Assembly: GCA_946480705.1 (NCBI GenBank) | Contig: CAMLLF010000252.1 | Location: 1 to 6,298 of the forward strand | Length of the DNA: 6,298 nucleotides | Reading direction: 5' to 3' | Source of the DNA: an uncultured Lysobacteraceae bacterium | GTDB lineage: Bacteria; Pseudomonadota; Gammaproteobacteria; Xanthomonadales; Rhodanobacteraceae | Part shown: positions 3,270-6,298 of the stretch, piece after piece | Layout: every line of letters starts with the position of its first letter | Numbering within the stretch: the stretch's first letter is position 1 | Notes under the pieces: model-generated | Seen by the model: only the letters and a program-made list of their open reading frames with translations | What the model was told of the DNA's origin: nothing | Database searches by the model: none | Position numbers and translations under genes: made by a program

Positions 3270-3683
3270 ATGGTCGATGCTCCGTTCCGCTGGTCGATCC
3301 GGGTTTACTGGGAAGACACCGATGCGGGCGGCGTCGTCTATCACGCGAGCTATCTGCGTTTCCTCGAGCGCGCGCGCAGCGAATACCTGCGCCATCTCGG
3401 TATTGAGCAGGAGCGGCTGCGCAACGACAATAACGTCGTCTTCGTCGTGCGCGACATCGCGATCGGCTTCGTGAAGCCGGCGCGGCTCGACGACGTGCTG
3501 GACGTTACCGTGGTATTGACGGAGCGGCGCCCGGCGAGTCTGGTGTTCCAGCAGCAGATCCTGCGCACCGCCGACGGTCGGTTGTTGTCCGAGGCGCGGG
3601 TGCGGGCGGCCTGTGTCGACGCCGCCGGTTTCCGTCCACGTCCCATTCCCGACGACCTGTTTGTGGAGATTGCCAAGGCATGA
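3270..3683 (+). CDS. ybgC: YbgC, Tol-Pal-associated hotdog-fold acyl-CoA thioesterase
   Basis: Cytoplasmic 4-hydroxybenzoyl-CoA thioesterase-type hotdog enzyme. It hydrolyses acyl-CoA thioesters and is linked in E. coli to the phospholipid-synthesis machinery. The 137-residue product matches E. coli YbgC (134). FRWSIRVYWEDTDAGGVVYHASYLRFLERAR at the N-terminus contains the family motif with catalytic Asp18, in the same numbering as E. coli, and His25 in YHASY. VVRDIAIGFVKPARLDD, ASLVFQQQI and the end PRPIPDDL follow the family pattern. The start at 3270 is chosen over 3213 and 3243 because of the Shine-Dalgarno site and the alignment; longer starts only add unconserved residues. It is the first gene of the tol cluster and its stop overlaps the tolQ start (ATGA), as expected for ybgC-tolQ. 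Its exact role in Tol-Pal function is not settled for the family. Confidence 0.95.
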   Translation: MVDAPFRWSIRVYWEDTDAGGVVYHASYLRFLERARSEYLRHLGIEQERLRNDNNVVFVVRDIAIGFVKPARLDDVLDVTVVLTERRPASLVFQQQILRTADGRLLSEARVRAACVDAAGFRPRPIPDDLFVEIAKA

Positions 3684-4363
3684 ACGCTGGTGACCTGAAT
3701 CTGTGGCAGCTCGTGCTGCACGCGAGCCTGTTCGTCAAGTTCGTGATGCTCGTGCTGCTGGCGTTCTCGTTCGTGTCGTGGATGATCATCTTCCGCAAGC
3801 ACACCATGCTGAAGACGGCGCTCGGCAGCGCGAACGAGTTCGAGGAGCGCTTCTGGTCCGGCGCCGATCTCGCCGCGCTGTTCCGCGAAGTCACCGGCCG
3901 CGGCGACCAGATCAGCGGCATCGAGAGCATCTTCGAGGCCGGTTTCCGCGAGTTCGCGCGGTTGCGCCAGCGCCGCGGTGTCGATCCGCGCACCCTGCTC
4001 GAAGGCGCCCAGCGCGCGATGCGTGTCGCGCAGACGCGCGAGATCGACCGGCTCGAAGGCAACCTCGAATTTCTCGCCAACGTCGGTTCGATCAGCCCCT
4101 ACGTCGGCCTGCTCGGCACCGTCTACGGCATCATGATTTCGTTCCAGGGCCTGGCCAACGTCAAGGAAGCCACCATCGCGAGCGTCGCCCCGGGCATCTC
4201 CGAAGCGCTGGTCGCGACGGCCATGGGCCTGATTGCGGCGATTCCCGCGTCCTGGGCCTACAACCGCTACTCGAACAAGGTCGAGCGCGTCGCGACGCGC
4301 TTCGACACGTTCACCGAAGAGTTCTCGTCGATCCTGCAACGTCAGGCGCACGTCGAGGATTGA
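3680..4363 (+). CDS. tolQ: TolQ, Tol-Pal motor subunit (MotA/TolQ/ExbB family)
   Basis: Inner-membrane subunit that, with TolR, forms the proton channel powering TolA. The 227-residue length matches E. coli TolQ (230). Predicted membrane segments are residues about 16-37, 133-156 and 169-192. The large cytoplasmic loop between the first and second contains the amphipathic ERFWSGADL and FEAGFREF regions typical of TolQ. The conserved core NLEFLANVGSISPYVGLLGTVYGIMISFQ (from 128) and APGISEALVATAMGLIAAIPASWAYN (from 170) carries the family signature, including the Thr and Ser/Thr positions lining the channel in TM2 and TM3. The ATG lies within the ybgC stop (ATGA), with GGAG 11 bases upstream, so translation is probably coupled. 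ExbB is a relative, but the context with tolR-tolA-tolB identifies it as TolQ. Confidence 0.97.
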   Translation: MNAGDLNLWQLVLHASLFVKFVMLVLLAFSFVSWMIIFRKHTMLKTALGSANEFEERFWSGADLAALFREVTGRGDQISGIESIFEAGFREFARLRQRRGVDPRTLLEGAQRAMRVAQTREIDRLEGNLEFLANVGSISPYVGLLGTVYGIMISFQGLANVKEATIASVAPGISEALVATAMGLIAAIPASWAYNRYSNKVERVATRFDTFTEEFSSILQRQAHVED

Positions 4364-4406: not shown

Positions 4407-4847
4407 ATGCAAACTCATCACCGCCGCAAACGCAAAAAACTCAAGGCCGACATCAACGTCGTGCCGTATATCGACGTCATGCTCGTGCTGCTCATCATCT
4501 TCATGGTGACGGCACCGCTGCTCAATCTCGGCGTGGACATCGATCTGCCGGAATCGGAGATCGCGAAGAGCCTCAACGTCGACAAGGATCCTGTCGTCGT
4601 GACCGTCGACAAGGCCGGCAAGCTGTTCCTGACGCTGCCCGAAGCCAAGAGCGAGGAAGTCACGGCCGACGTGCTGAAGACGAAGATCGCGGCATTCGTG
4701 CGCAACAACCCGAAGCAGCCCGTCTACGTCGCCGGCGACGGCAAGGCCGAATACAGCAAGATCTACGACGCGATGGCGCTGCTGCAGTCCGCCGGCGTGC
4801 CCAAGGTCGGCCTCATGGGCCAGCCGCCGCAGGACAAGGCCAACTGA
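4407..4847 (+). CDS. tolR: TolR, Tol-Pal proton channel subunit (ExbD/TolR family)
   Basis: Single-pass inner-membrane protein that pairs with TolQ. Its membrane aspartate takes part in proton translocation, and its periplasmic domain binds peptidoglycan when the motor is activated. The 146-residue protein compares with 142 in E. coli. A basic N-terminus (HHRRKRKKLK) precedes the motif ADINVVPYIDVMLVLLIIFMV, with the essential Asp at residue 23, the same number as in E. coli TolR, and a membrane helix at about 20-40. TAPLLNLGVDIDLPES follows directly as in the family. The periplasmic domain shows VVVTVDKAGKLFL, VYVAGDGKAEYSKIYDAMALLQSAGVPKVGLM, the typical ExbD/TolR fold. It lies 43 bases after tolQ and 9 before tolA. 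Confidence 0.97.
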   Translation: MQTHHRRKRKKLKADINVVPYIDVMLVLLIIFMVTAPLLNLGVDIDLPESEIAKSLNVDKDPVVVTVDKAGKLFLTLPEAKSEEVTADVLKTKIAAFVRNNPKQPVYVAGDGKAEYSKIYDAMALLQSAGVPKVGLMGQPPQDKAN

Positions 4848-4856
4848 TCCGCAGTC

Positions 4857-5684
4857 ATGGCCGGCGACGACAACTCCCTGCGACCCTGGCTCTATTCGAT
4901 CGCGGTGCACCTGCTGGTGCTCGCGCTCGTCAGCGTGAGCCTCTGGTGGACGCGCAGCACCGTCGCGGTCGCGATTCCGGGGCCGATCATCGAGGCGACG
5001 CTCGTCGGTCCGGCGCAGGCGCCGGCCCCGAAGAACGTCAAGAAACCGGTCAAGCCGGTCAAGCAGCCCGAGCCCAAGCCTGAAGAAGTCAAGCCGAAGG
5101 CCGACGAGCCCGCGCCCGAGAAGCCCAAGGAAGACAGGAAGGACCAGGAAAAGATCACCGACAAGATCACCCAGCAGAAGGCCGAGGAAGACGCCAGGCT
5201 GCAGGAGGAGCTGCGGAAGAAAGAACAGATCGAGCTTGCCGAAAGACAGGCGGCCGAGGCCGAGAAGAAAAAAAAGCTAGAGGAAGAAAAAGCCAAGCAG
5301 TTGCGCGACCAGAAGCAGCGCGAACTCGACAAGAAGGCCGAGGCCGAGCGTCTCGCGGCGATGATCGCGGATGAGGCCAAGAGCGGGCAGGAAGGCACCG
5401 ACACGAGCCTCGAAGCCGAGTACTACGCCGCGATCCAGAGCGCCGTGACGAATGCCTGGTTGCGTCCTGAGTCGACGCCGCCCGGCGTGCGCTGCACGCT
5501 CGAAATCACGCAGATCATCGGCGGCGACGTGATCCAGGCTGTCGTGGTCGAACCGTGCAACGCCGACGCGCCGACGCGCACCACGCTCGAGCAGGCGCCG
5601 CAGCGCGCATCGCCGCTGCCATACAAGGGGTACGAGTCGGTGTTCAAGCGCAAGATCCGCTTCGAGTTCACCTATGACGGCTAG
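4857..5684 (+). CDS. tolA: TolA, trans-periplasmic energy transducer of the Tol-Pal system
   Basis: Inner-membrane-anchored protein whose C-terminal domain crosses the periplasm to contact TolB and Pal under TolQR drive. It is 275 residues, shorter than E. coli TolA (421), mainly in the rod. Domain I is a single helix at about 13-31 with the S-x3-H motif (Ser14, His18) that TolA/TonB proteins use to interact with TolQR. A Pro/Lys-rich stretch spans about 52-95, and a highly charged Lys/Glu/Ala helix spans about 95-175 (domain II). Domain III, about 185-275, contains YYAAIQSAVTNAWLRP, Cys213 and Cys234 (positions matching the E. coli domain III disulfide) and the end ASPLPYKGYESVFKRKIRFEF. No good Shine-Dalgarno site precedes the ATG, 9 bases after tolR, so translation is probably coupled. 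A slippery A AAA AAG lies in the rod. The last 11 bases overlap the next gene. Confidence 0.95.
   Translation: MAGDDNSLRPWLYSIAVHLLVLALVSVSLWWTRSTVAVAIPGPIIEATLVGPAQAPAPKNVKKPVKPVKQPEPKPEEVKPKADEPAPEKPKEDRKDQEKITDKITQQKAEEDARLQEELRKKEQIELAERQAAEAEKKKKLEEEKAKQLRDQKQRELDKKAEAERLAAMIADEAKSGQEGTDTSLEAEYYAAIQSAVTNAWLRPESTPPGVRCTLEITQIIGGDVIQAVVVEPCNADAPTRTTLEQAPQRASPLPYKGYESVFKRKIRFEFTYDG
5270..5276 (+). other. Possible -1 frameshift heptamer (A AAA AAG) within tolA
   Basis: An A8 run (5268-5275) followed by G places A AAA AAG exactly in phase with the tolA frame (codons AAA 5271, AAG 5274). This is the same heptamer used in E. coli dnaX. A GAGG at 5256-5259, ten bases upstream, could act as a stimulating Shine-Dalgarno-like element. 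The -1 frame continues for 32 codons to TGA 5372-5374, giving a TolA without domain III. No clear stimulatory hairpin is visible downstream, and the tract may only reflect a lysine-rich rod. Function is speculative. Confidence 0.2.
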
Positions 5685-6024
5685 CGCCGCGTTCGCCGGG
5701 CTCCTGCTCGCGACGGCGGCGGGCGGTCAGAGCGCGGCGCCCGCGCCGATCGAGGCCTATATCGAGGCCGTGCACGCGGCGATCATGCGCGCCTGGGTAC
5801 AACCGCGGTCGGCGGCCGTCGATCTGCATTGCCCGATGGACATCGTGCAGCGCGATGGCGGCCACGTCGTTCAGGCTAGCTTCGGGAGCGATTGCAATGC
5901 TGATGCGGCCACGCGCGAGTCGTTAGAACGCGCCGTCGGCAAAGCCTCCCCGTTACCGTATGCCGGTTTTGAAAGAGTCTTTCAGCGCCGCATACATCTC
6001 GTTTTCAAACATAGCGGCCACTAG
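5674..6024 (+). CDS. Small exported protein: stand-alone TolA domain III paralogue
   Basis: The 116-residue product aligns without gaps to domain III of the adjacent TolA (its residues 29-111 against TolA 189-271). I count about 38 identities in 83 positions. These include AW-x2-P, QxxGG, CNADA.TR..LE, ASPLPY.G.E.VF and both cysteines (Cys53, Cys74) at exactly the TolA spacing of 21. The first 25 residues (core FAGLLLATAAG, then GGQSAAPAP) look like a signal peptide, though without a basic n-region. There is no membrane anchor with S-x3-H and no helical rod, so it should be a free periplasmic domain. The ATG overlaps the tolA end by 11 bases in another frame, has no visible Shine-Dalgarno site, and probably depends on tolA translation. 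Its second half uses codons rare among the neighbours (TTA twice, AGA, ATA, TTT). It likely arose by duplication of the domain. Its role is unknown; it might bind TolB or Pal. Confidence 0.8.
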   Translation: MTASAAFAGLLLATAAGGQSAAPAPIEAYIEAVHAAIMRAWVQPRSAAVDLHCPMDIVQRDGGHVVQASFGSDCNADAATRESLERAVGKASPLPYAGFERVFQRRIHLVFKHSGH

Positions 6025-6027
6025 AGC

Positions 6028-6032
6028 AGGAA
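6028..6032 (+). promoter_or_regulatory. Ribosome binding site of tolB
   Basis: AGGAA lies four bases before the ATG at 6037, just after the stop of the small TolA-domain gene at 6022-6024. It gives tolB its own initiation signal instead of relying only on coupling. Confidence 0.6.
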
Positions 6033-6036
6033 CGAT

Positions 6037-6298
6037 ATGCCAGCCAACTTCGTATTCCGCATCGCCAGCCTGCTGCTCTGCCTGCTCGGCTCGGCAGCGC
6101 AGGCGCAGACTTCCGCCCCGACGCCCGGCCAGGGCCTCAGCAGTGACGTGCCGACCATCGTCATCCGTGACGGCACGGCGTCGGCGTGGCCGATCACCGT
6201 CGTGCCGTTCGCATTCGAGGCGGCCGGCGCGCCGAGCGAGACCGACGTCGGCGACGTCGTCCGCATGGACCTCGCGCGTTCGGGCAAATTCAAGGCGC
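6037..6298 (+). CDS. tolB: TolB, periplasmic Tol-Pal protein (5' part, cut by window end)
   Basis: Periplasmic protein with an N-terminal domain and a C-terminal beta-propeller. It binds Pal through the propeller and TolA through its N-terminal strand. Only 87 codons are present; the gene continues beyond the window. Residues 1-23 form a signal peptide: one Arg, a hydrophobic core SLLLCLLGSA, and an AQA cleavage site before Gln24. The Cys at 15 is not in a lipobox. PTIVIRDGTASAWPITVVPFAF corresponds to the E. coli start EVRIVIDSGVDSGRPIGVVPF, and DVGDVVRMDLARSGKF is the conserved TolB_N motif. The mature N-terminus has about 14 extra Ser/Pro/Gly-rich residues before that strand. Position after tolA and a 12-base gap from the preceding gene support the assignment. 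Confidence 0.95.
   Translation, partial: MPANFVFRIASLLLCLLGSAAQAQTSAPTPGQGLSSDVPTIVIRDGTASAWPITVVPFAFEAAGAPSETDVGDVVRMDLARSGKFKA

Follow-up and report, generated by a model that had tools for sequence, protein, structure and literature searches.

Does a small open reading frame between tolA and tolB of a gammaproteobacterium code for a protein with a function in the Tol-Pal system, and what might this function be? TolA contributes to the cohesion of the outer membrane in these bacteria. How the activity of Tol-Pal is tuned is an open question, and a TolA domain III (TolAIII) which is encoded in the operon but free of the motor is a candidate tuner. The DNA analysed here, referred to as the window, is a stretch of 6,298 nucleotides from an uncultured bacterium which is placed in the Rhodanobacteraceae by GTDB. 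In the original prediction, which was based on the letters of the window, the reading frame was described as an exported second copy of TolAIII that could compete for TolB and Pal or serve as a decoy for phages or bacteriocins.

Organization of the tolA-tolB Junction

The window contains a tol-pal operon with the genes tolQ, tolR and tolA, the free domain III gene and the start of tolB (Table 1). The predicted 116-residue reading frame between tolA and tolB is present. Its start codon is located within the last codons of tolA, in the sequence ATGACGGCTAG, resulting in an overlap of 11 nt, and its stop codon is separated from the ATG of tolB (6037) by 12 nt. By reading of the sequence, the ribosome-binding site AGCAGGA was identified in front of tolB, and no strong ribosome-binding site was seen by eye upstream of position 5674, so that the free gene is probably translated by coupling to tolA, at the 3' end of the latter. 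A scan of positions 4800-6298 identified no sigma-70-like promoter site, and the terminator scan of the same region gave one site, on the opposite strand inside tolA, which equals the chance expectation. Upstream of tolQ, a thioesterase gene (ybgC-like) was identified by Pfam 4HBT_2, and the reading frames at 204-2081 and up to 3112 resemble what we take to be a Kup-type potassium transporter and RuvB.

Table 1: Positions of the tol genes, the free domain III gene and its parts in the window.
Feature	Position	Strand	Remarks
tolQ	3680..4363	+	227 aa; Pfam MotA_ExbB, E 2e-36
tolR	4407..4847	+	Start ATG at 4407 assigned by reading, search sequence beginning at 4416; Pfam ExbD, E 3.8e-26
tolA	4857..5684	+	275 aa with anchor, charged rod and domain III; NCBIfam TIGR02794, 81.9 bits (cutoff 59.45)
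TolA domain III, globular part	5421..5681	+	Alignment with the free domain
Free domain III gene	5674..6024	+	116 aa; ATG start, TAG stop
Overlap of 11 nt, free-gene ATG and tolA stop codon	5674..5684	+	ATGACGGCTRA-type overlap in 7/7 loci
Signal-like N-terminus, residues ~1-24 (cleavage site approximate)	5674..5745	+	Kyte-Doolittle; pLDDT < 50 at residues 1-20
Predicted domain III fold, helix-strand-strand-helix-strand	5746..6021	+	H25-40, E51-60, E64-70, H78-91, E106-113; AlphaFold and Foldseek
Residues 65-116, with conserved codons ending in A or T	5866..6021	+	Columns of invariant amino acids compared with tolQ/R/A/B
Candidate RNA hairpin in the free gene (weak evidence)	5958..5995	+	Folding comparisons
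tolB, 5' portion, truncated at the end of the window	6037..6298	+	Pfam TolB_N, E 4.1e-9

The Free Protein as a Homologue of TolA Domain III

A hand count of 38/83 identical residues had suggested homology to the domain III encoded directly upstream. This was borne out by BLASTP, which in a single comparison of the free protein with the TolA of the window identified 45/110 identical residues (41%) with one gap and an E value of 4e-29. The two cysteines, which the prediction had placed at the same spacing in both domains, and a Trp are common to the free protein and TolA and are invariant in an alignment of 14 TolA and free-domain rows. In addition to the conserved Trp and the Cys pair, the free protein contains the [S/A]-PLPY-x-G motif of TolA domain III. 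The anchor and the rod of TolA are absent from the 116 amino acids, the domain fold starting at residue 25.

The profile searches stayed below the cutoffs: NCBIfam TIGR02794 matched the free protein in the C-terminal part only with 26.9 bits (cutoff 59.45), and Pfam TonB_2 gave 16 bits for the free protein and 15.9 bits for the TolA of the window, both below the cutoff of 22. The free protein is not a full TolA, since it stays below the equivalog cutoff of TIGR02794 and has neither the anchor nor domain II. An AlphaFold model, which was built from 40 homologues, has a mean pLDDT of 78, with values below 50 for residues 1-20 and of 76-93 for the blocks of the domain. In Foldseek, the first rank for this model was TolAIII (6s3w, E 8.2e-4), which was the sole match at E <= 0.001, followed on ranks 2-5 by TolA 2x9a, TolA 1lr0, a TonB domain and TolA 3qdp, with TM-scores of 0.51-0.57. 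BLASTP and Foldseek both support a second copy of TolA domain III which lacks the anchor and the rod, and by sequence and modelled fold the free gene is assigned to a TolA domain III homologue.

Distribution and Origins

In a search of 5.8 billion proteins, 40 matches were identified including the query, the others being 53-88% identical (in the alignment or the best local match) and all at E <= 1.4e-27. A length of 116-125 amino acids was found for 39 of the 40, the exception being P0040 with 162 amino acids and a different start. A chance reading frame is ruled out by the 39 further homologues, 38 of which are 116-125 amino acids long. The proteins originate from Tahibacter, Rhodanobacteraceae MAGs and metagenomes, and 34/40 start with the residues MTA, as is expected from a start that overlaps the stop codon of tolA.

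In the family of G001, the genome at the centre of the search, 223/233 genomes contain a domain match and 17 contain at least two. The second copy is located directly 3' of tolA in six of the 17 (G001, G229, G230, G231, G233 and G234); the other 11 were searched again, and here the second copies are found elsewhere. One of the genomes, G076, contains two domain III matches in one frame of 270 amino acids (C15:111484-112116), which is unlinked to tolA. The six loci and the window are the seven loci that were read. The arrangement tolA-free-tolB, which was to be looked for in relatives according to the original prediction, is kept in 7/7 loci: the gene order is tolQ-tolR-tolA-free-tolB, the free reading frame is open, and the ATGACGGCT overlap is shared by all of them. 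In a tree calculated from TolQ, TolR and a portion of TolB for 21 loci, the seven carriers form one clade (100/98), consisting of Tahibacter and its kin, with G228 (fork 93/89) and then G232 as the nearest outgroups, both without the free gene. One gain and zero losses suffice for this tree.

The tandem architecture is also present in a second family, the Lysobacteraceae, in at least 26 of 395 genomes, which were sampled from a larger group and searched with a Luteimonas free domain as query. At least two matches were identified in 61 of the 395, which were searched again, and in 26 the second match follows directly after tolA. In all 26 loci read, a second domain III frame is located between tolA and tolB, and 24 of these are intact. 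The counts are lower bounds, because reading was confined to genomes with at least two matches. The carriers include Lysobacter (for example, Lysobacter sp. K5869, G486) and Xanthomonas sp. XNM01 (G406), two more tandem cases are the Luteimonas loci L002 and L004, and L. enzymogenes carries close relatives of the G517 protein. The two broken copies are L135 (G607), which is frameshifted, and L116 (G571), which is degenerate. In tandem loci of Lysobacter with large genomes (L098, L099, L106-L110 and others), the free protein has a basic, Trp-rich C-terminal tail, for example VKRWWRQVRER, and one more pair of Cys residues in front of the domain, which is an elaboration specific to this lineage. 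Short frames with a TolA domain III and a signal-like start also occur unlinked in the Lysobacterales, at 13 loci (L117-L129) and in G235 (L054).

Of 185 genomes sampled across the class, 156 gave a match and four (G001, G629, G785 and G786) gave at least two; among the matches listed for this sample, no tandem copy was found outside G001. A collection of phages (50,697 records) and a plasmid collection contained no match to the free domain at E <= 0.01, and the best E value for the free protein in PHROGs was 0.13.

The origin of the free domains was addressed with a tree of 92 domains and 87 columns, which has little resolution, an unsettled bootstrap and long branches that were flagged. The seven free domains of the window clade form one group (99/94) within the TolA domains of their own family, the Rhodanobacteraceae (100/99), and a second group consists of 15 Lysobacter rows (99/96). 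In G505, the free domain is grouped with the TolA of its own genome (96/82) and therefore results from recent duplication or gene conversion. The tree supports at least three origins of the free domain III, unless gene conversion is misleading. The free gene of the window probably arose when the 3' end of tolA was duplicated, with a putative signal peptide replacing the anchor and the rod. The recurrence of the architecture implies that such a gene is readily formed and advantageous to retain.

Probable Export of the Free Protein

The highest mean Kyte-Doolittle value over 10 residues in the free protein of the window is 2.03, with an n-region charge of 0 and no Lys or Arg before the stretch. 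Close to the start, all 40 homologues contain a 10-residue stretch with a mean of 1.7-3.3, which in P0040 is found only at residue 33, and an AxA site in the expected range was identified in 25/40. In the Lysobacteraceae, 20 of the 24 intact copies combine a hydrophobic stretch with AxA, with starts that were chosen by script and one of which, that of G277, falls inside the domain. As controls, YbgC gave 0.45, RuvB 0.32, TolB 2.66 and the TolA anchor 2.85; since the value of the anchor is as high as that of TolB, the measure detects hydrophobic starts and cannot separate a signal from an anchor. Of the predicted signal-like N-terminus, the hydrophobic stretch was found in the window protein and its homologues, while the positive residues that should precede it are missing from the window protein. 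For the family as a whole, these N-termini make export likely. The free copy of L050 (G229) has no visible signal sequence and PQPF in place of PLPY, and is perhaps decaying or cytoplasmic.

Selection on the Protein and Probable Constraint on the Codons

Pairwise dN/dS was determined for the 10 pairs of five close loci. Values of 0.36-0.94 were obtained for residues 26-64 of the free gene and of 0.06-0.39 for residues 65-116, in comparison to 0.12-0.21 for TolA domain III and 0.07-0.29 for the part of TolB. The dN/dS analysis that had been proposed with the original prediction thus gave values below 1 for the free gene in 10/10 pairs, which shows purifying selection, weaker than that on TolA in the first half of the domain. 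By these substitution patterns and the open frame in 7/7 loci, the free domain III is a maintained gene in the window clade. Were it a decaying tandem copy without function, the frameshifted and the degenerate copy among the 26 Lysobacteraceae loci and the loss of the signal-like start in G229 would find an explanation; however, the open frame in 7/7 loci of the window clade, the 39 further homologues, the dN/dS values and the fixed overlap with tolA argue against decay and make it highly improbable.

The 3' half of the free gene is likely to be constrained also on the codon level. For residues 65-116 of the five loci, an identical AT-ending codon was identified in 12 of the 42 columns with an invariant degenerate residue, compared to 8/425 in tolQ, tolR, tolA domain III and tolB (Fisher 4e-9); when G229 and G231 were added, the seven loci gave 5/25 compared to 6/367 (p 2.5e-4). 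Identical codons of any kind were found in 30/42 compared to 194/425 columns for five loci (p 0.001) and in 12/25 compared to 124/367 for seven loci, the latter not being significant (p 0.11). Third positions in this stretch are A or T in 40%, in comparison to 11-15% in tolQ/R/A/B. All seven loci share the identical blocks GTCGTTCAGG and TGCAATGCTGATG, which are not seen in the codons for domain III of tolA in these genomes. Given the invariant AT-ending codons, the 3' half of the free gene probably also contains a nucleic-acid signal.

The candidate hairpin at 5958-5995 folds at the equal position in the seven loci, with conserved arms. In comparison to synonymous variants, p values of 0.010 (window), 0.034 (G001), 0.002 (G234), 0.130 (G233), 0.058 (G230), 0.278 (G229) and 0.004 (G231) were obtained, four of the seven being <= 0.034, while the TolA control stretches gave 0.406, 0.036, 0.682, 0.412, 0.660, 0.012 and 0.372, with 2/7 at <= 0.036. 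In a consensus fold, base pairs connect the conserved block near 5866 to the leader of tolB, the stretch of 201 nt folds no better than shuffles (z -0.43), and an Rfam search over the window gave no match. Since the pair counts for covariation of the hairpin in the seven loci are not above those of shuffles, a constrained stretch is claimed and not an RNA structure. If the stretch were retained chiefly because it serves tolB as a nucleic-acid element, for example as an internal promoter, an RNA structure or for translational coupling, with a minor role of the protein, then the AT-ending codons, the A/T content of the third positions and the four loci in which the hairpin exceeds synonymous variants would be accounted for. 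However, the protein is conserved too, with dN/dS below 1 even at residues 26-64, neither a sigma-70-like site nor an Rfam match was identified, the covariation and the 201-nt fold do not exceed shuffles, two of the TolA controls reach the level of the hairpin, and the excess of identical codons of any kind is lost over seven loci. We consider such a primary role quite unlikely.

A Possible Competitor in the Tol-Pal System

In our main reading, which is given a probability of about 0.5, the free protein is a probably exported, soluble TolAIII that competes for the N-terminus of TolB and thereby tunes Tol-Pal. The free gene would be translated into a soluble single-domain protein, probably exported by Sec. 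In the periplasm, the free domain may bind the TolB N-terminus by strand addition, like TolA, but untethered from the TolQR motor, so that it would compete with the force-bearing TolA or hold TolB that was pulled off Pal. As an outcome, Tol-Pal activity would be lowered or buffered, with effects on outer-membrane tethering, vesicle shedding or leakage. This reading is supported by fold and homology, by the fixed position and overlap in 7/7 loci, by the single clade of the carriers, by dN/dS, by the occurrence in a second family, by the minimum of three origins on the tree and by the hydrophobic starts in 40/40 homologues. According to the portions available of a review (PMC7391070), TolB contacts the last-strand side of TolAIII in the solved P. 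aeruginosa complex, and changes in the interactions of TolB might be a means of regulating vesicle output. The better conserved half of the free domain contains this last strand. However, conservation of the protein in the 3' half cannot be cleanly separated from the codon-level signal located there, positive residues are absent from the n-region of the window protein, AxA is limited to 25/40, G229 has no visible signal, and many Lysobacterales live without the free gene. From the available parts of PMC7391070 and PMC4339652, binding between TolAIII and the N-terminus of TolB proceeds by strand addition, with a Kd of about 40-200 uM; with this low affinity, a competitor present at or below the level of TolA may do little unless its own affinity is higher. 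The original prediction had TolAIII bind both TolB and Pal; the first holds, while binding to Pal was not seen with purified proteins, as far as the accessible part of the review goes (PMC7391070).

The main rival is a decoy, in which the free domain would bind adsorption proteins of filamentous phages or TolA-dependent bacteriocins in the periplasm and so spare TolA. TolAIII is the site for phage g3p and for colicins A and N, as given in the available portions of PMC7391070 and PMC4339652, and repeated gain together with the fast change of residues 26-64 would fit a conflict. However, relaxed constraint explains these residues equally well, the rate of change is low at residues 65-116, no phage or bacteriocin that would match is known for the host of the window, and the 50,697 phage records give no sign of an arms race; the decoy is considered unlikely. 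Slightly less probable still is a protein that no longer acts on TolB and has a different partner in the periplasm or outer membrane, for example as a TonB-like adaptor. Its last strand, RIHLVF in comparison to KIRFEF of TolA, differs and yet is conserved among the homologues, and the unlinked copies and the extra Cys pair and basic Trp-rich tail of the large Lysobacter lineage point in the same direction, against which stands the position adjoining tolB that is kept in 7/7 loci of the window clade.

For the competitor at the TolB N-terminus, a wider version may be formulated, in which the Lysobacterales repeatedly built a soluble Tol-Pal antagonist from a detached domain III, which received a signal peptide and a place between tolA and tolB, as a clutch that sets the grip on TolB, with an RNA or DNA signal coupling translation to tolB in the window clade; this version is speculative and rather doubtful. 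In the open-licence literature, to the extent accessible and with subscription papers outside the scope, no account of a free domain III gene between tolA and tolB was found; a 2025 survey of TolA evolution (PMC12204202) discusses TonB paralogues and, in its accessible part, not a free TolAIII. Not part of the original prediction were the conserved AT-ending codons in the 3' half of the free gene and the recurrence of the architecture in a second family.

Comparison to Known Systems

With the solved TolA domain III proteins (6s3w and 1lr0 from P. aeruginosa, 2x9a and 3qdp from E. coli), the free protein shares the predicted fold, the Trp, the two cysteines, the last strand and the operon, at about 20% identity (19-24% in the Foldseek rows). 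Unlike these, it has no transmembrane helix or rod and has a signal-like start. In databases, the homologues from Tahibacter caeni and MAGs are named "TonB C-terminal domain-containing protein" or "colicin import membrane protein", and the one from Lysobacter enzymogenes "hypothetical protein", names which say nothing on position, export or role.

A soluble accessory protein of the tol-pal operon is already described with CpoB/YbgF, which is periplasmic and binds TolA, according to the accessible literature. This protein has the soluble accessory nature and the operon in common with the free domain; however, it is a TPR protein of unrelated fold, and its gene is located after pal.

The closest counterpart is an engineered one. 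TolAIII provided with a signal sequence was reportedly produced in E. coli by Levengood-Freyermuth in 1993 and by Wan and Baneyx in 1998. Here, an anchor-free domain III is exported and the outer membrane leaks, and the window protein has a similar anchor-free design and is putatively exported. The effect in E. coli on which the original prediction had drawn is real in the literature: in the available part of PMC6195910, cells exporting the signal-sequence TolAIII leak periplasmic protein, which is described as a pore. A natural exported TolAIII, made beside TolA, might give a graded version of this leakage, and if this is true, a laboratory trick would become biology. In contrast to the engineered TolAIII, the gene in the window is natural, is part of the tol-pal operon, overlaps tolA and is conserved.
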